Below, piece by piece: positions 1 to 51,778 of a stretch of DNA of 64,000 bases; position 1 is the stretch's first letter; the number at the start of each line of letters is the position of its first letter. Both the position numbers and the translations under genes were made by a program. Origin of the DNA: Acidobacteriota bacterium. GTDB lineage: Bacteria > Acidobacteriota > Vicinamibacteria > Vicinamibacterales > JAKQTR01. Under the pieces are notes generated by a model that worked only from the letters and a program-made list of their open reading frames with translations, did no database searches and was not told where the DNA came from. Location: the NCBI GenBank assembly GCA_026393755.1, contig JAPKZO010000028.1, positions 248,001 through 312,000 of the forward strand. The letters are read 5' to 3'.

Positions 1-388
1 CCGCTGAAGATAGAGCCGCGCAATGTGAGCACTCCAATCGGCAGGCATAAATTCGCCGAGCGCTCGCGATCGGAAACCGCCGAACTAACTATGAATTATT
101 GCTAGATACGTGCCACCTGGATAGGACCTGTCGTAGCAACGTCTATTGAATGCAGAAATTCAACGAAATACTCCACTATTTGGCTTTTTTGGCTGCACTG
201 GGTTCGTGCACGGCGGCAGGCCAGCCAAGACAAAGTCGCTTGTGGCGGGGACTTTTGTTCCCTTGGTCGCAGAATCCTGTATTTCCCGACTTCCTTCTCA
301 CGACGGTCCGGTATGCGCCGGCCATTTCCGGAAAGTGACAGCGTGGCGCGTCTGGCGCCGCCAGTGGAGCACCGACGCCGACGGTTGG
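1..388. other. Intergenic / no supported gene
   Basis: I see no convincing gene here. The open frames on both strands are short and lack family features. The segment lies downstream of the minus-strand PEP-CTERM gene ending at 389. No clear rho-independent terminator was found. Confidence 0.5.
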
Positions 389-1114
389 CTACCGAGGGCG
401 ACGACGGACGATTCTTGCGAGCCCGACCAGGCCCGTGCCCAGGAGGACCATCGACGCGGGCTCAGGGGCGGGGGTGCAATCTCCCGCCGCAGAACAACCG
501 GGGCCGTCCCACACCATACCCGTATTGGCGCCGGTATAGAAACCGTTGGTGATGTCTGCCGCAAAGTGATGCCCGGCGGCATTGGGAATGAACCAATCGG
601 GCGTTATGCCAGACGAACCGATTCTAAACTCGAGCGGACCTGGGTTTGGGTGAGAAGCACCTTTACCGCAATAAGCGGTGCTCTCAGCATATTTCCCACT
701 ACACAGATACGAGAAGCCGAATTGTCCGGCGTCGCTGGTGGGAGCGTCCCCACCGAGGCGCCAAATCCAAGCCACGTCCGGCGAACCGCCAGCAACGCCC
801 AGGCCATCTTGAATCAAAGTAACATTTGACGGAGTAAGCGTCGTCACGCCAGAAAGGTTCCACGCGAAGTCGGGGTGGTTATTGGTCTCGCTGCCTGTCG
901 TAACGAAGCCGATGCCTGCATTCAACGTGACCAGCACATCTACCACGTTCGCCGACCCGTCCGAGCTGGATGCAAACTGCGTGAGTACGACTGTGCCGAA
1001 TGGCCCGGTGCCACAGCAAGCACTCTGATTGAGCGTGAAAGTCGACGCACTCGCGGTTCCGGCCCACGCCATTACGACGATCGCCACTCCTGCCGCTACG
1101 AGATTCTTCAACAT
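389..1114 (-). CDS. PEP-CTERM sorting domain protein 1
   Basis: Predicted secreted substrate of the exosortase encoded nearby. The 241-residue protein begins with a short positive stretch and hydrophobic signal peptide (residues 1-23, cleavage after a TASA motif). It ends in a PEP-CTERM tripartite tail: Pro-Glu-Pro at about residue 217, a hydrophobic helix beginning SMVLLGTGL, and a final Arg-rich cluster. The middle is a low-complexity beta-rich region with several Cys residues and no recognised catalytic domain. PEP-CTERM proteins are exported by Sec, held in the inner membrane by the tail, cleaved by exosortase and released to the exopolymer matrix (family knowledge). A GG-N10-GC sigma-54 promoter lies about 60 bp upstream, suggesting activator-controlled expression. 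Confidence 0.9.
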   Translation of the reverse strand: MLKNLVAAGVAIVVMAWAGTASASTFTLNQSACCGTGPFGTVVLTQFASSSDGSANVVDVLVTLNAGIGFVTTGSETNNHPDFAWNLSGVTTLTPSNVTLIQDGLGVAGGSPDVAWIWRLGGDAPTSDAGQFGFSYLCSGKYAESTAYCGKGASHPNPGPLEFRIGSSGITPDWFIPNAAGHHFAADITNGFYTGANTGMVWDGPGCSAAGDCTPAPEPASMVLLGTGLVGLARIVRRRPR

Positions 1115-1176: not shown

Positions 1177-1192
1177 TGCAAATGTGAAGCCA
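1177..1192 (-). promoter_or_regulatory. sigma-54 (-24/-12) promoter of PEP-CTERM gene 1
   Basis: On the minus strand the sequence is TGGCTTCACATTTGCA. The GG and GC dinucleotides are separated by exactly 10 bases, matching the RpoN consensus TGGCACG-N4-TTGCW apart from the middle. The predicted start of transcription is about 50 nt before the ATG at 1114. A similar element precedes the next PEP-CTERM gene, with 33 of 44 bases shared around it. Confidence 0.75.
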
Positions 1193-1275
1193 GATCGAGG
1201 CTGGCCGACATTCGGGCGTGAAATCAGCGTTTGTTGGCCAATAGCAACCGCTTTGTGAGATGAGACTGACAGGCG

Positions 1276-1297
1276 CAAAAAGACTTAGTCTTCTTTG
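1276..1297. promoter_or_regulatory. Candidate activator-binding dyad upstream of sigma-54 promoter
   Basis: An inverted repeat CAAAAAGACT / AGTCTTCTTTG (one bulged base) sits about 90 bp upstream of the -24 element, a usual distance for an enhancer bound by an NtrC-type activator. The core TAGTCTTCT recurs upstream of the neighbouring PEP-CTERM gene at about 2711. The regulatory role is inferred. Confidence 0.4.
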
Positions 1298-1385
1298 TGA
1301 GCACAAACAGTCTGCCCCGGCGGATCCGTTCTGACTCTTAAGGACTTGCACCTCCAAGTGAACGACCGCGCACGGCGTACAACAA

Positions 1386-1417
1386 GAAGGGCCGCTCGGT
1401 TACCCGGGCGGCCCTTC
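1386..1417 (-). terminator. Rho-independent terminator after PEP-CTERM gene 2
   Basis: A perfect 10-bp inverted repeat (GAAGGGCCGC / GCGGCCCTTC) with an 11-13 base loop lies 45 bp beyond the stop at 1462. On the minus strand it is followed by a modest T-rich run (TTGTTG). Confidence 0.65.
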
Positions 1418-1461
1418 GATCTGTCTCGGTGTTGCGGCGGCGCATGCCGCCCACTCCATTC

Positions 1462-2358
1462 CTACTTCTTCCGCTTCCGCGCCGCACGCGCGAGGCCGAC
1501 CAGGCCAGTGCCGAGCAGCAGAATGGTGGCCGGCTCGGGAACCTCTGGGGGAAGGGGGTCGCCAATCACTTGAATCCACTCATCGGGGCCGTCGTTGTTC
1601 GCGTAGATGCCGCCGGTAATGCCCATGGCGTTGTAAAGATACAGGTAATCGCCATAACTGGTTGGGATCGGTACGTAGAACGCATAGTCACCCGACCCGC
1701 TCCCGTTGTCCCATTTATAGTTCAGCAATAGCGAGTTCGATCCGAGACTCCAGAACTGGTTGCCCAATCCCGCCGCGGTGTCACTTGACTGTGGGTACTG
1801 AGGCACCCCGTTGACCAAGGCGACGCCGGGGTTCCTGGCGGGACTGTCAGAGGTGTAGAAGCCCAGCTGATCTAACGAAATGAGAGGAGCGCCGCCCTGC
1901 TGGTCTATGTCAATGATGAACTTCCAGTAGGCCTGTCCGGAGCCGGTATAGAGTTCGTCCAACCACTGATAATGGTACCCAGTAAGCTGTTTATCATCGG
2001 GGGCCAGTCCCCAATAGACGGAGAGCGCGGCCAACTGATCGGTCTGCACGAGGCTCGTCCAGTTGGCCGATCCATACGCGCCGTTGTAATCTACGCTGCC
2101 GAGGTTGGCCGCATCGTAGTTGTACGCCTGCGTGATGCCGCCATTTGTATCCTTGGTCGGCATGAACTTCAGGAACGGATCGATGAACCCCGTTCCAGTG
2201 GCCTGTGGATTGACCCCTTGGACGATCATCCCACCCAGGACCAAAATCTGCGCGGCGTTGGTGGAGGCAAACTTCGCCGTCAGGTCAATAGTGCCTGCCT
2301 GGGCAGTCCCCACACAGGTGACTAGCGTGACGATGGCGACAAACAGCAGCTTCTTCAT
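1462..2358 (-). CDS. PEP-CTERM sorting domain protein 2
   Basis: A 298-residue secreted exosortase substrate. Signal peptide at residues 1-22 (MKKLLFVAIV..., AxA cleavage site), then an aromatic- and Gly-rich beta-type region without a recognisable enzyme motif. The C-terminal sorting tail has PEP at about residue 274, the hydrophobic segment ATILLLGTGL and the basic end RKRKK. I chose the internal ATG at 2358 because it gives a proper signal peptide. The same frame stays open upstream to 2535 and there encodes a decayed second signal peptide. A sigma-54 promoter at 2578-2593 would give a leader of about 200 nt through that relic. A hairpin terminator follows at 1386-1417. Confidence 0.88.
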   Translation of the reverse strand: MKKLLFVAIVTLVTCVGTAQAGTIDLTAKFASTNAAQILVLGGMIVQGVNPQATGTGFIDPFLKFMPTKDTNGGITQAYNYDAANLGSVDYNGAYGSANWTSLVQTDQLAALSVYWGLAPDDKQLTGYHYQWLDELYTGSGQAYWKFIIDIDQQGGAPLISLDQLGFYTSDSPARNPGVALVNGVPQYPQSSDTAAGLGNQFWSLGSNSLLLNYKWDNGSGSGDYAFYVPIPTSYGDYLYLYNAMGITGGIYANNDGPDEWIQVIGDPLPPEVPEPATILLLGTGLVGLARAARKRKK

Positions 2359-2535
2359 CGGCCGTCTCCATCCCAAGACCCGCCAGCGTTGGACGCCGGC
2401 AACGCACCAGGCAATCACGTGTGCGGTCACGCCAACAATCGCCGATGCACTCCCCGTCTCAGCCCAGCCCATCACGACTACGGCCCTGGCGAATGTCTCT
2501 AACGGCGAATGTCTCCAGAACTTCCCCAACGGCAA
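2359..2535 (-). pseudogene. Relic of a PEP-CTERM-type signal peptide upstream of gene 2
   Basis: In frame with the downstream gene, this stretch encodes AVVVMGWAETGSASA, which resembles the signal peptide of the neighbouring PEP-CTERM gene (AIVVMAWAGTASAS). About two thirds of the bases match over some 42 positions, and the promoter regions are similar too. The simplest reading is that the promoter and signal-peptide start were duplicated and the new copy decayed ahead of an unrelated PEP-CTERM gene. An N-terminally extended functional protein is less likely, because two hydrophobic export signals would be in tandem. Confidence 0.45.
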
Positions 2536-2577
2536 CCGTGAACCACGTGGGCGATGGGGCTAGTTTGTTTACTTACT

Positions 2578-2593
2578 AGCAAATGTGGATCCA
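2578..2593 (-). promoter_or_regulatory. sigma-54 (-24/-12) promoter of PEP-CTERM gene 2
   Basis: The minus strand reads TGGATCCACATTTGCT, with GG and GC separated by exactly 10 bases as RpoN requires. Flanking bases on both sides (GCTAGTTTG downstream and CCAGATC upstream, plus-strand reading) are shared with the promoter of PEP-CTERM gene 1. Confidence 0.75.
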
Positions 2594-2684
2594 GATCAAG
2601 GGCGCGGTGGGCCTAGCCTTGAAATTAGAGTTTCTTGGCCTATTTCACTTGGTACACGGAGTGAGAGTGATACAACGAGGCGTC

Positions 2685-2710
2685 ATTTGTCGCCGCGGAC
2701 GCCGACAAAT
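2685..2710. promoter_or_regulatory. Candidate enhancer dyad upstream of PEP-CTERM gene 2
   Basis: A perfect 8-bp inverted repeat ATTTGTCG / CGACAAAT with a 10-bp GC-rich centre lies about 95 bp upstream of the sigma-54 -24 element. Position and symmetry fit a binding site for a sigma-54 activator dimer. The binding protein is unknown. Confidence 0.45.
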
Positions 2711-2830: not shown

Positions 2831-5104
2831 TTAGAGAGTCGCCAGAATCTTCCTGGCCTCCGCGGCGCCGTCGAAGTCGCGCTTCAGCGAGAGCGCCCTC
2901 TCGAGGGCCTGCTTCGCCTGGGGCCTTTCGCCGTTCTTTAGGTACGCCAGCCCGAGATGGTACTGGTATATGGCGTTACCCGGGTCCTTGGCCGCGCTTC
3001 GCTGAAACGACGCGATCGCGAGCGGGGCAAGTCCCTTCTTAAGGTAGACCCAGCCCAGCGTGTCGTCCACTTCGTGCCGGTCGGCAAGTTGGCGCTTTGC
3101 GGTCTGGGCCAACTGCAGCGCGACATCGAGATTGCCACCTCGTTCCGCGTAGAGCCAAGCGAGGTTATTGGCGGCAACCGGCGCATCGCGTCCGATTTCT
3201 ATTGTGCGCTCGTACCGCTTCTGTGCTTCGTCGAGGCGGTTCTGCGTCTGCAGCATCATGCCGACCATCGTGTTGGCGCCGACGTTGGTGGGTTCCTTGT
3301 CCGCAATCCGCTCGAACTCTCGGCGGGCGTCGTCCACGCGACCCTGGGTGTAGAAGATCTGGCCCAGCGCGGCGTAGGCACTCATGTTGTTGGGTTGGAC
3401 CTCAACCAGTCTTCGCCAGGCCTGCTCTGCCTGTTTCACATCTCCCAGCGACATGTATGCGCGCCCGGCAAACTCGAGAACCGCCGGATTCGCAGGGTCC
3501 TTGGCCAGCCGCGCGCCGATTCGGGCTAGGGCGTCGGCCGGCTTCCCGCTTGCAACGTCGAGACCCACCAGCCCCGCCAGCGCCGGGATAGAGGTGCCGT
3601 CCAGTTCCTGGGCCCGCGCAAAGGCGGCACGTGCCGTTGCATAATCCTTCTTAGCGGCAGCGACGGTCCCGGCCAGGATGTGCACGTCCGGCGAGCGGGG
3701 TGCCTGCGCGACAAGCGTCGCCGATTCCGTGGTCGCCCGGGCGATATCGCCGCGCGCGAGCAGGAGACGGACGAGTGTGAGGCGGGCGTCGAGGTTGCCC
3801 GGCTGTCTGCCGACGACTTCCTCGAGCGTCTTCTGAGCGGGCTCGAGCGCGCCTGTTCCAAATTGAATCTTGGCGATCTGGAGAGCCGCGTCCAGCGAGC
3901 TCGGTTTCAGTTTCAGCACTTCCCTGAAGGCCTTTTGCGCCTGCTCTGTGTCATTCTTCTCGAGGTACATCAGGCCGATGGCGTACTGTGCGTCTGTCAG
4001 CCTCGGATCGGCCGCCGCTGCCGCCTGTGCGCGCGCCAGGGCCTCATCGATCTTGCCATCAGTGCTGAGGAACCTTGCCTTCAGCAAGAGGACTTGCGCG
4101 TTGTTGGGCTCGGCGGCCAGCAGTTCGTCGAGCCGTTTGTGTGCCTGCTCGCGTCGTTTGTCGGTAAAATCCCATCGCGCCAGCGCGAGCGTCGCCGGCA
4201 CCTTTCCGTCCGGCTCCTTCGCCAGCGCCTCCAGCACCGGGATTGCCTCCGCGCTCCGGGTGTTGACGAAGTAGTAATCCGCGAGTTGCAGTCTGTCGGC
4301 GACGGCCTTCGTCGTTTCTGCCAGCCGGCGCAGGGGCTGTTCGGCTTCCTTCGTGCGGCCAGACTGCAGGTAGAACGCCGCGAGAGTCCGGTTGGCGTCA
4401 GCGTGCGTAGGCTGAAGCGCAAGCGCTTCCTTCAGGAGCGCTTCGCTCCTGGCGGTGTCGCCGGCGGCCCAGTAGATCTTCACCAGTCCAATCCTGGCAT
4501 CAACCGACGCTGGCTCGACGGCGATCGCGTTGCGCAGAATCGTCTCCGCCTGCGCCGGGTTCCCGCTGTCCCGCACGTAGCCGGCGAGATTCAGGTAGGT
4601 ATCCACCCGGTGCGGGTCGAGCGTGATGGCGATTTCGAGTTCCTTGATGGCCCCAGTCAGGTCCTTCTGGCCGCCCAGAGCATTGGCCAGGGCGAGTCGT
4701 GCGGTGAGGTTTTTCGGGTTCTTCCTCAGCAGCGCCTCCGCAATCCGCTTGCCGTCTTCGTGGCGGCCGGCGAGCACCAGATACTGCGCCGCTCTCAACT
4801 GGACGTCGTCTCTATCGGGAAGCAGGTCCGCGGCCCTCACGAACTCGCGGAAGGCGTTCTCGGGATCGCTCAGGCGTTCGTAGATGCCGGCCAGCTTGAA
4901 GCGTGCCTCGCCGAAGCGCGCATCCACCTTGATCGCGTTCCGGTATTCGATCACCGCCTCGCGCAGCTTGTTCTGTTGGACGTACCGATCTGCGCGCGCC
5001 AGATAGTCCCGCTTGGCCGTCTCGGGATCCTTCGAGCACGAGACAACCGGGATGAGAACAACCACGAGCGCAACGGCGCGGACGAATGGACCAGATGGCC
5101 TCAC
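2831..5104 (-). CDS. prsT: PrsT-like TPR-repeat lipoprotein of the PEP-CTERM system
   Basis: A 757-residue lipoprotein. The N-terminus has a hydrophobic signal and a lipobox ending at Cys23 (PVVSC). The rest is a continuous run of tetratricopeptide repeats, with typical A-x3-Y-x2-A and P-x-A/N patterns about every 34 residues to the C-terminus. PrsT proteins accompany exosortase/EpsH loci and are thought to scaffold polymer export or PEP-CTERM protein handling at the envelope (family association; exact role unknown). The gene starts 16 bp after the exosortase stop, so both are probably one operon. It is somewhat shorter than the roughly 900-residue family norm, so a generic TPR lipoprotein cannot be excluded. 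Confidence 0.8.
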   Translation of the reverse strand: MRPSGPFVRAVALVVVLIPVVSCSKDPETAKRDYLARADRYVQQNKLREAVIEYRNAIKVDARFGEARFKLAGIYERLSDPENAFREFVRAADLLPDRDDVQLRAAQYLVLAGRHEDGKRIAEALLRKNPKNLTARLALANALGGQKDLTGAIKELEIAITLDPHRVDTYLNLAGYVRDSGNPAQAETILRNAIAVEPASVDARIGLVKIYWAAGDTARSEALLKEALALQPTHADANRTLAAFYLQSGRTKEAEQPLRRLAETTKAVADRLQLADYYFVNTRSAEAIPVLEALAKEPDGKVPATLALARWDFTDKRREQAHKRLDELLAAEPNNAQVLLLKARFLSTDGKIDEALARAQAAAAADPRLTDAQYAIGLMYLEKNDTEQAQKAFREVLKLKPSSLDAALQIAKIQFGTGALEPAQKTLEEVVGRQPGNLDARLTLVRLLLARGDIARATTESATLVAQAPRSPDVHILAGTVAAAKKDYATARAAFARAQELDGTSIPALAGLVGLDVASGKPADALARIGARLAKDPANPAVLEFAGRAYMSLGDVKQAEQAWRRLVEVQPNNMSAYAALGQIFYTQGRVDDARREFERIADKEPTNVGANTMVGMMLQTQNRLDEAQKRYERTIEIGRDAPVAANNLAWLYAERGGNLDVALQLAQTAKRQLADRHEVDDTLGWVYLKKGLAPLAIASFQRSAAKDPGNAIYQYHLGLAYLKNGERPQAKQALERALSLKRDFDGAAEARKILATL

Positions 5105-5120: not shown

Positions 5121-6680
5121 TTACCCGCCCAGATGCTTGGTGAGAACAGGCAACAACTCGCTGACGAATTCCAACCCCGTCGCCGTCGCCGCCTGTCCGT
5201 CGGTTGTGTCTTGAGGGGAGATGGGGACGATCACCCGGACCAGGGCGGCGTCGCTCCTGTTCAATCGAATCGCGTCCACCACCGTGTAGATCTTCCCCCA
5301 GTACTCGCTCGCGATGATTCGGCCGTGGGCCTGATACCAGTAAAGCACCAGCAATCGATCGAGCCCCTTCTGAACGACGAGTTGGTTGATTTCCGCCGTC
5401 TGAGAAGCTGTGCCGTTGTCCACAGCTGGGATGGCGATGCGGCCCCGGTAGACGGGTTCCCATCCCGCGCCCGGCATGCAGTTGAGCGGCGAATGCATGG
5501 TCTGCCCCTGCCGCTGGCTCTCGTAGTACCCCACGTAGAGACTGATTCCCGGCCGGCCCGGTGCCCGGTAGCCACGATTGAGGTAGTCGTCAACGCGCAG
5601 TTGGCCGAGGACATTCCTGTCCAGCGTCTGGTCTCCGGTTCCCTCCCAGGCGCCAATCGTCTGGGGCAGCGTGACCAGGCGCTGGTGCAGCGGAATCGCT
5701 TCGGTCCGCGTTGCGGCTCCCAGCGCACCGGCACCCGCGAGAAGACACGCAGAGACCACCAGGGCTCTCGTGATGAAGCCTGCGCCCTGTTGCGCCTGCA
5801 GCGAGATGGACGCCGTCGGCCCCATGCGCGGATCCGCCGACGCCGCCGCGGCGGGAGCCGCCGGGCCCAACCATTTCGCCAGCCGCTCGACCGCCAGCAG
5901 CAGCACGCCGGCGACGACGAAGACCATCCAGCCCGAGAATGTGTGAAGAAAGCCCTCTGCTGCTGCCGCGCCGACAAAGTGGGCTGCGACGCCCGTGCCG
6001 GCCACCCTGATCCCGTTGGCGAAGATCGCGATGGGCACCGACGAGAGCGCGAGCACCCATCGCAGCCACAAGGCGGACTCCGTCAGGTACCCCCACACCA
6101 AAGCGAGCGTCAGCAGCGACATCAGCGAGCGGATGCCGCTGCACGCATCCACAACCTCGAGGCTGGTCGAGGCGAGGGTGATGACGTTGCCTTCGCGGAG
6201 CACCGGGATCTGGCACGCCGAAATGGCGAACTCTCCAAAGCGAGACGCCAGGAGCTGAAGGGGAAACGTGATCTGGTTGAAGATGATGGCGGGGATCGGA
6301 ATCGCGAGGGCCAGCAGCAGGAACGCGAACCCGAGCGCCTTGAGGTACTGCGTGCCCCGGAGGAAGAGGACCGTGCCGGCGACCGTGCCCAGCAGGGCGA
6401 CGCGCGTGAGGAACAACTCTGCGCCAATGACTCCCGCGACAAGTGTCAAGATGCTGCCAACGACCAGCAGCAAGCCGATCATCGACGGTTTGACAGGGAG
6501 ACTCGCCAGGCGCGCTCGGCTACGCCACCAGACGTAACCCGCCAGCGGGACCACCAGGAGGCCGTGCGAGTAGTTGTCGTCGTTCCACCAGTCGAGGACC
6601 AGTTTCGCGATGACGTCTCGAAACAGGAACGCGATACTCGCCACGAGCACCGCAACAACGCCTGCCCGCTTCATGGTCAT
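5121..6680 (-). CDS. xrtA: Exosortase A fused to EpsI domain
   Basis: An inner-membrane transpeptidase-like enzyme that cleaves PEP-CTERM tails. The N-terminal half (about residues 1-300) has eight or so hydrophobic helices. It carries the exosortase catalytic residues: Cys near 180 (VDACSGIRS), Arg near 225 (ANGIR) and His near 246 (FLHTFSGW). The C-terminal 200 residues form the periplasmic EpsI (DUF3485) domain, with motifs such as VDDYLNRGY and HSPLNCMPGAGW. The fused arrangement and length of about 520 residues are usual for the XrtA class. I use the ATG at 6680; an ATG at 6674 is equally possible and neither has a clear Shine-Dalgarno. It lies downstream of the terminator of PEP-CTERM gene 3, so it needs its own promoter in 6690-6790. 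Confidence 0.93.
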   Translation of the reverse strand: MTMKRAGVVAVLVASIAFLFRDVIAKLVLDWWNDDNYSHGLLVVPLAGYVWWRSRARLASLPVKPSMIGLLLVVGSILTLVAGVIGAELFLTRVALLGTVAGTVLFLRGTQYLKALGFAFLLLALAIPIPAIIFNQITFPLQLLASRFGEFAISACQIPVLREGNVITLASTSLEVVDACSGIRSLMSLLTLALVWGYLTESALWLRWVLALSSVPIAIFANGIRVAGTGVAAHFVGAAAAEGFLHTFSGWMVFVVAGVLLLAVERLAKWLGPAAPAAAASADPRMGPTASISLQAQQGAGFITRALVVSACLLAGAGALGAATRTEAIPLHQRLVTLPQTIGAWEGTGDQTLDRNVLGQLRVDDYLNRGYRAPGRPGISLYVGYYESQRQGQTMHSPLNCMPGAGWEPVYRGRIAIPAVDNGTASQTAEINQLVVQKGLDRLLVLYWYQAHGRIIASEYWGKIYTVVDAIRLNRSDAALVRVIVPISPQDTTDGQAATATGLEFVSELLPVLTKHLGG

Positions 6681-6796
6681 GGTATAGGCACAAGAGTGGA
6701 ACGAGCGCACTCGCCGCAGGCGGGTGGCCGTCTATGTCAACACTAGAGCGCATCTTACCAGACGACAGACGATTATTGTCGACCTGGGCCGGACAG

Positions 6797-6867: not shown

Positions 6868-7524
6868 CTACTTCTTGAGGCGGCGACGGACCGCACCGGC
6901 AAGGCCGACCAGGCCCGAGCCAAACAGCAGCATCGATGCGGGCTCGGGGACCGAGGTGTTCTTGATGTCCGTGCTGATGGCAATTCCGTGCTCATCCGGG
7001 GCGGTTCCGATCCAACCTGCATGCAGTGAGAACCCGAAGAAAGCAAACGGCGTCTCCACGGGAATACCGAGGGCACGCAGCACCTCCGGGCTCTTGGTGT
7101 CAACACCGGTAGCAGAAACCAAACCTTGAGCAGTGCTCCCATGTGAGTTGATTGTCCCGGACAACAGCGTCACCAGATTGTTGGCATCGCCCACGCCGAG
7201 CGAAGGGATGTACCCCGTGATGCTGATGAAATTGGTGGCGGAGCGGGTGTCGAAGGCAAGACTCGCCCAAGTTCCAGGTATGATGTGACCGTCGCCGACC
7301 GCAGTGCCGTAGGTCAGGAAGTTACCGGGCACGACACTTCCCTGGACGTTCATTATCTGGATGGGAATCCCTGATCCCCACACATCCGCTCCGTCGCGGA
7401 AAAGGGTGCCACCGGATCCGGCGATCCCGGTGCCGAAATCGATCACGATGGGTACCGCCTGGGCCGGGGCGACGGTGATCACCATCGCGGCCGCCACGAA
7501 CAGCGCTAACAACATCTTTCGCAT
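6868..7524 (-). CDS. PEP-CTERM sorting domain protein 3
   Basis: A 218-residue exosortase substrate. It has a signal peptide (MRKMLLALFVAAAM..., cleavage after an AQA motif near residue 23), a Gly-rich beta-type domain, and a C-terminal PEP motif at about residue 193 followed by the hydrophobic segment ASMLLFGSGLVGL and basic RRRLKK. The ATG at 7524 was chosen over an upstream in-frame start because it gives a clean signal peptide and is preceded by the good ribosome-binding site AGGAGAA. Directly upstream of the exosortase operon but separated by a strong terminator. A weaker sigma-54-like sequence occurs at 7660-7675. Confidence 0.9.
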   Translation of the reverse strand: MRKMLLALFVAAAMVITVAPAQAVPIVIDFGTGIAGSGGTLFRDGADVWGSGIPIQIMNVQGSVVPGNFLTYGTAVGDGHIIPGTWASLAFDTRSATNFISITGYIPSLGVGDANNLVTLLSGTINSHGSTAQGLVSATGVDTKSPEVLRALGIPVETPFAFFGFSLHAGWIGTAPDEHGIAISTDIKNTSVPEPASMLLFGSGLVGLAGAVRRRLKK

Positions 7525-48141: not shown

Positions 48142-48258
48142 GCAGCTTCACACCGACCCGGCGCGATGTCCTGGGGCCTGTTGGCGTCAGGGGTGCTGCG
48201 GGTGCACAATAGCGCAAAGCGGTCGCAGGTTCACACGGACGCGGAGCGGAGAGATCAC

Positions 48259-48675
48259 ATGGGCAGGCTGTCAACGCTGGAGAAGCAGTGCCGCGCTCAC
48301 GGCGTGTTGGCCGTCTACCTGTTCGGCTCCCGGGTATCAGACGGGATTCATGCGCTTGCCGGCGGAGCCGTCGATCCCGCGGGATCGGACATGGATGTCG
48401 GCGTCGTGTTTCTTGGGCGCGACGCCGACGTGGCCGCGCTCCCGCTTCTCCAGGTGGCCCTCGAGGACGCGTGCGCGCCGCTGCGAATCGACCTGGTGCC
48501 GCTGCAACGCGTGGATGCGCTTTTCCAGTTCGCAGCCATCGATGGTGAACGCATATTTGCCGCGGACGTGGACCAGGCCGATCTCTACGAATTGGTGGTG
48601 ATGCGGAAGGCTGCGGAGTTGCTGCCCCTCCAGCGCGCGATCGAACACGATCGTTTCGGAGTGTCGACATCATGA
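48259..48675 (+). CDS. mntA: MNT-domain nucleotidyltransferase antitoxin (MntA-type), second
   Basis: A 138-residue minimal nucleotidyltransferase. The active site is split by an insertion: VYLFGSRVSDG, about 15 extra residues, then GSDMDVGVVF. RIDLVPLQRVDALF provides the third acidic strand. It would act as AMP-transferring antitoxin to the following HEPN toxin. ATG at 48259 with GGAGCGGAGAG upstream; its end overlaps the toxin start (ATGA). Distinct from the pair at 45482, so not a recent duplication. Confidence 0.85.
   Translation: MGRLSTLEKQCRAHGVLAVYLFGSRVSDGIHALAGGAVDPAGSDMDVGVVFLGRDADVAALPLLQVALEDACAPLRIDLVPLQRVDALFQFAAIDGERIFAADVDQADLYELVVMRKAAELLPLQRAIEHDRFGVSTS

Positions 48676-50344: not shown

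Positions 50345-51776
<1,432 letters not shown>

Positions 51777-51778
<2 letters not shown>

Follow-up and report, generated by a model that had tools for sequence, protein, structure and literature searches.

A predicted sigma-54 regulon of PEP-CTERM genes, with a duplicated promoter and a putative upstream activator site, in a Vicinamibacterales genome lacking PrsK and PrsR

The window analyzed here, a whole stretch of 64,000 nucleotides from a genome of the order Vicinamibacterales (Acidobacteriota), carries at its left edge four PEP-CTERM genes in tandem; the genome has 10 such genes. Gene 1 (positions 389 to 1114, minus strand) and gene 2 (1462 to 2358, minus strand) encode proteins of 241 and 298 amino acids, whose PEP-CTERM tails match TIGR02595 with 22.0 and 26.2 bits (cut-off of 16) as well as PF07589. 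Start codons were predicted by rule, on the basis of the signal peptide, the start codon, and the ribosome site. Also on the minus strand lie the gene for a PrsT-like TPR protein (2831 to 5104; TIGR02917, 326.5 bits, cut-off of 312.2), the gene for an XrtD-like exosortase with an EpsI domain (5121 to 6710; TIGR04152, 413 bits, cut-off of 400), and a third PEP-CTERM gene (6868 to 7524). Both parts of the PEP-CTERM/exosortase sorting system, the tails and the exosortase, are therefore present. An exosortase-type exopolysaccharide cluster takes up much of the window as far as ∼42 kb and includes genes for a FemAB-like protein, a polysaccharide deacetylase, amidotransferases, and an O-ligase-like protein. 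In three other genomes (G003, G014, and G020), each with at least three PEP-CTERM genes, a search at E ≤ 1e-10 returned no exosortase; the assemblies may be incomplete, or the sorting enzyme may be divergent.

The initial annotation claimed sigma-54 (−24/−12) elements of the form GG-N10-GC upstream of genes 1 and 2. We found both 16-mers on the minus strand, TGGCTTCACATTTGCA at 1177 to 1192 for gene 1 and TGGATCCACATTTGCT at 2578 to 2593 for gene 2, and the reported 33 identities over 44 bp were reproduced as the best ungapped stretch between the two promoter regions. None of 60 shuffles matched the score of the gene 1 element. The third PEP-CTERM gene had been described as having a weak match only, and this was borne out: its best sigma-54 match, TGGCACGGATCGTGAT, lacks the −12 GC and thus falls outside the TGG...TTGC context in which the sense-strand GG-N10-GC is found upstream of genes 1 and 2 and of most other PEP-CTERM genes. 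The top-scoring element among the 10 genes, TGGCACGTATCTAGCA at 100 to 115 (minus strand), had been overlooked; it lies 256 nt before the start of a further PEP-CTERM gene (in locus L006), a start that is off the left edge of the window. The genome encodes one copy of rpoN (PF04552, 219 bits). A sigma-70-like promoter for gene 1 was considered and rejected, with a single upstream match at chance level. Elsewhere in the window, a gene for an MntA-like antitoxin (48166 to 48675, plus strand; 42 bits, cut-off of 60) is preceded by a sigma-54-like sequence, TGGCATCGGGTTGGCA, that is probably there by chance.

Alignment of the promoter regions of genes 1 and 2 gave a local score of 98, whereas none of 200 shuffles scored above 41. 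The similarity begins ∼160 bp before the sigma-54 element and runs into the signal-peptide codons of gene 1, ∼300 bp of homology in all, and it identifies the two promoters as homologous copies, duplicates of each other. The 33/44 identity is thus partly due to common descent, the two promoters are not independent evidence, and the similarity of their elements alone cannot show function. The DNA alignment continues through the leader of gene 2 (2359 to 2577, minus strand; 219 nt), where its downstream part alone is no better than shuffles. This leader contains a relic resembling the gene 1 signal peptide (ARAVVVMGWAETGSAS against VAIVVMAWAGTASAS, 10/14 identities), and the current start of gene 2 lies downstream of the relic. 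We infer that the leader preserves, in decayed form, the signal-peptide start of a gene resembling gene 1 and that the duplicated promoter was apparently captured by an unrelated PEP-CTERM gene, gene 2.

A genome-wide search for the element at PEP-CTERM genes had been suggested as a check, and it revealed a clear enrichment. The strict element TGG-N8-TTGC[A/T] shows no overall excess in the 4.43-Mb genome (180 matches versus 254 for the control), but four matches are on the correct strand and no more than 300 nt before one of the 10 PEP-CTERM starts, compared to 0.061 expected (P = 5e-7). We then scored upstream regions with a sigma-54 weight matrix that we set from the known consensus and did not fit to these data. 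The best sense-strand score reached a shuffle p of ≤0.1 at all 10 PEP-CTERM genes of the genome, whereas the antisense strand reached it at none. These 10 genes also outscored 49 other genes of the window (Mann-Whitney, 1.2e-6), a comparison in which the other genes had 60 nt more sequence, a bias against the result. In 11 genomes of the order taken together, the same threshold was reached on the sense strand at 53 of 70 PEP-CTERM genes and on the antisense strand at 11 of 70; the 10 further genomes alone contributed 43 of 60 genes with a sense-strand element. Not all sites in the genome are perfect (the −24 motif reads CGG in L002, L007, and L010), and some of the promoters are related: L001 and L009 are homologous, and L002, L004, and L007 are alike over ∼75 bp, such that the 10 represent at most five to seven independent promoters. 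On sequence evidence, the PEP-CTERM promoters here form a real sigma-54 regulon, and the claim of sigma-54 control is well supported by this enrichment and by the presence of RpoN.

We then asked which upstream feature the promoters share. The initial annotation pointed to paired inverted repeats, and these do exist. Dyad 1 (1277 to 1295) reads AAAAAGACT-T-AGTCTTCTT, with arms at 1277 to 1285 and 1287 to 1295 that are 89% complementary; dyad 2 (2685 to 2710) reads ATTTGTCGCCG...CGCCGACAAAT, with arms at 2685 to 2695 and 2700 to 2710 that are 91% complementary. The two dyads do not correspond, however: the local alignment contains no counterpart of dyad 1 in the gene 2 promoter, and dyad 2 is partly an insertion relative to the gene 1 promoter. 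What both duplicated promoters have in common is G[C/A]AGACT[G/A]TTTGT, which in each case lies exactly 110 bp from the sigma-54 element. This putative activator site is found at 1303 to 1316 for gene 1 (ACAAACAGTCTGCC on the plus strand, GGCAGACTGTTTGT on the minus strand) and at 2704 to 2717 for gene 2 (GACAAATAGTCTTC and GAAGACTATTTGTC, respectively). The dyads only overlap or flank this common element, dyad 2 overlapping the gene 2 site at one end and dyad 1 adjoining the gene 1 site. Read on the minus strand, dyad 1 also includes GAC-TAA-GTC, which may be a second site whose spacer is 3 bp.

A de novo motif search of the 10 promoters, covering 15 to 190 bp upstream of each sigma-54 element, recovered GGAGACTATTGTC, which is GACAATAGTCTCC on the opposite strand, with a likelihood of 67.8 compared to a shuffled mean of 42.2 (SD of 1.7). 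The site takes the form GAC-(AT-rich, 3 to 5)-GTC and lies at a variable distance, about 60 to 131 bp, from the promoter; examples from the genome's own promoters, besides GACAATAGTCTCC, are GACATTAGTCTCC, AACATTAGTCTGC, AACTATAGTCTCC, GACAACAGTCTGC, and GACTAACGTCTGC. The same motif provides a putative activator site for the L006 gene (AACAAAAGTCCCC, 247 to 259, minus strand). Separate de novo searches in relatives yielded GACAAAAGTC in G019 (GAC-N4-GTC), a similar but weaker GAACGAAGTC in G021, and a weaker motif in G007. When the matrix from the genome of the window was applied to other genomes, 20 of 44 promoters had a match at p ≤ 0.1 (P = 1.6e-9). Among regions lacking a sigma-54 match of 8 bits, a small group, the figure was 3 of 11; the totals are our own count.

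Exact matches to the core RACNNNAGTCT[C/G]C number 16 genome-wide, as expected by chance (20 for the reversed control), and only their position is enriched. Five of the 16 cores are at PEP-CTERM promoters, and 6 are followed, 60 to 135 bp downstream, by a sigma-54 match scoring ≥9 bits: these 5 and one other, which has a GC-rich spacer and is inside a 451-codon open frame. Cores with both an AT-rich spacer and such a downstream match thus number five, all of them at PEP-CTERM promoters. Since the core pattern was drawn from these promoters, this result shows specificity and is not an independent discovery. The exact core on contig C36 (GACAAAAGTCTCC) was rejected as it has no sigma-54 match nearby.

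Could the elements in the window be alike merely through DNA duplication and not be promoters at all? The ∼300 bp of homology between the two regions would account for their likeness, and sequences with three or fewer mismatches to the element occur in the window at the chance rate. This explanation is nevertheless barely plausible, because the element and the upstream site recur on the sense strand at unrelated PEP-CTERM genes, both in this genome and in relatives. A different possibility is that the promoters are real but that GAC-N4-GTC is bound by a protein not of the NtrC type, such as a repressor or a nucleoid protein, with the activator sites located elsewhere, for example, at the dyads. 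The presence of the dyads and the variable distance between site and promoter are consistent with this idea. The palindromic form of the site, its distance range, and its presence alongside sigma-54 elements are instead consistent with an enhancer, and the dyads are not common to the two promoters; we therefore regard this possibility as unlikely.

The closest precedent comes from the Proteobacteria. At PEP-CTERM genes, and in Proteobacteria only, Haft et al. (2006; PMC1569441) found a sigma-54 motif preceded at ∼63 bp by a 17-nt motif whose last bases are TTTACA. They linked this sigma-54 control to PrsK/PrsR, reported that PrsK, PrsR, and PrsT match the motif's profile, and left further regulators and motifs to discover. 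As in their system, PEP-CTERM genes here have long upstream regions in which a −24/−12 element is preceded by a conserved putative activator site, and PrsT and an exosortase are present. Unlike in their system, the site is GAC-(AT-rich)-GTC[N][C/G]C rather than the 17-nt motif, its spacing is ∼60 to 130 bp rather than ∼63 bp on average, and PrsK and PrsR are absent from the genome. In Aquincola tertiaricarbonis RN12, pepA is expressed from a mapped −24/−12 promoter dependent on rpoN1, whereas prsT is unaffected by rpoN1 (PMC9850573). The likeness is a PEP-CTERM gene with a −24/−12 promoter, known here from sequence alone, whereas RN12 is a PrsK/PrsR strain with experimental data. In the open papers that we searched, we found no description of sigma-54, RpoN, or an exosortase together with PEP-CTERM in Acidobacteria, although one may exist elsewhere.

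Could this genome use the known proteobacterial arrangement, in which PrsK/PrsR work with RpoN by way of the PrsR box, as the initial annotation had proposed in extending the pair to this lineage? The shared sigma-54 logic and the presence of PrsT (TIGR02917 above its cut-off) are in its favor, as are true PrsR proteins in three relatives (G002, G007, and G019; 554 to 574 bits) and PrsK in G007 (346.8 bits). The assembly is rated 100% complete, and the suggested search for prsK and prsR elsewhere in the genome returned no protein above either cut-off: the best TIGR02915 score was 428.6 bits, the level of ordinary NtrC-family regulators (cut-off for PrsR, 502.6 bits), and the best TIGR02916 score of a whole protein scanned was 154.6 bits (cut-off for PrsK, 300 bits). 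The genome's closest regulators are ∼40% identical to the PrsR proteins of the relatives, which are 71 to 77% identical to one another. Moreover, the PrsR box TGTCGG-N5-TTTAC was found in 0 of the 70 PEP-CTERM upstream regions of the order, whereas the same pipeline plainly recovered TGTCGG-N5-TTTACA, along with strong sigma-54 elements, in two positive controls with PrsR-like genes (G026 and G027, one labelled Proteobacteria and one Smithella). G007 and G019, which have a true PrsR, have the GAC...GTC type of site and not the PrsR box. With family scores below cut-off and a different upstream site, the extension of PrsK/PrsR fails in this genome; we consider this explanation very improbable, and for this genome it is largely refuted.

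G002, a genome of the same family, combines its true PrsR (566.6 bits; L108, G002:C27:44000-60000) with an exosortase-like gene but gave no TIGR02595 match at E ≤ 0.01. PrsR-like proteins of Bryobacteraceae and Verrucomicrobia (G024/L126 and G025/L129) are 63 to 71% identical to the PrsR proteins of the order; the PEP-CTERM genes of these two genomes, few in number and with predicted starts, have no consistent sigma-54 element.

We thus consider it likely that genes 1 and 2 carry copies of one duplicated sigma-54 promoter within a genome-wide PEP-CTERM regulon whose activator is not PrsR. RNA polymerase with RpoN would occupy GG-N10-GC as a closed complex, PEP-CTERM promoters would depend on RpoN, and the upstream site would bind an activator, probably another of the genome's NtrC-type proteins. 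For the order as a whole, we lean slightly toward a sigma-54 regulon of PEP-CTERM genes that is controlled by a non-PrsR enhancer-binding protein acting through a new GAC-N4-GTC enhancer. If this view is correct, activators differ by lineage under constant sigma-54 control, since GAC-N4-GTC occurs both with and without PrsR. The promoter logic is separable from PrsK/PrsR, as the same promoter type is found with another putative enhancer in a genome without the pair. We predict coordinated induction of many uncharacterized surface proteins in these bacteria.

The GAC...GTC motif provides a concrete handle for finding the activator. The genome encodes some 15 receiver-type NtrC-type regulators and several others. 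A kinase/regulator pair on contig C30 was rejected as PrsK/PrsR: the scores of 154.6 and 379.9 bits are below cut-off, and the kinase, which matches PrsK positions 135 to 486, has PDZ, GAF, and PAS domains. The window itself contains an NtrC-type response regulator gene (50345 to 51778, plus strand), ∼8 kb past the exopolysaccharide cluster; its product was rejected as a shared activator, with at most ∼50% identity to the regulators compared from G001, G003, and G021. Seven of the genome's regulators have orthologs 84 to 93% identical in G001, a member of the same genus that has no PEP-CTERM genes, and are therefore unlikely to be dedicated to PEP-CTERM. One of these seven, C40_205776, is the ortholog of a regulator that adjoins a PEP-CTERM gene in G021 (G021:C237), and the latter was rejected as well. 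A weak candidate, which we offer as a lead only, is the regulator at C5:150463-151851, which adjoins a sensor kinase with sCache, HAMP, and PAS domains. Of 12 genomes that have PEP-CTERM or exosortase genes, 11 encode an ortholog (63 to 73% identity), compared to 6 of 12 others, a marginal co-occurrence (Fisher, 0.034) for a regulator picked after looking among those of the receiver type.
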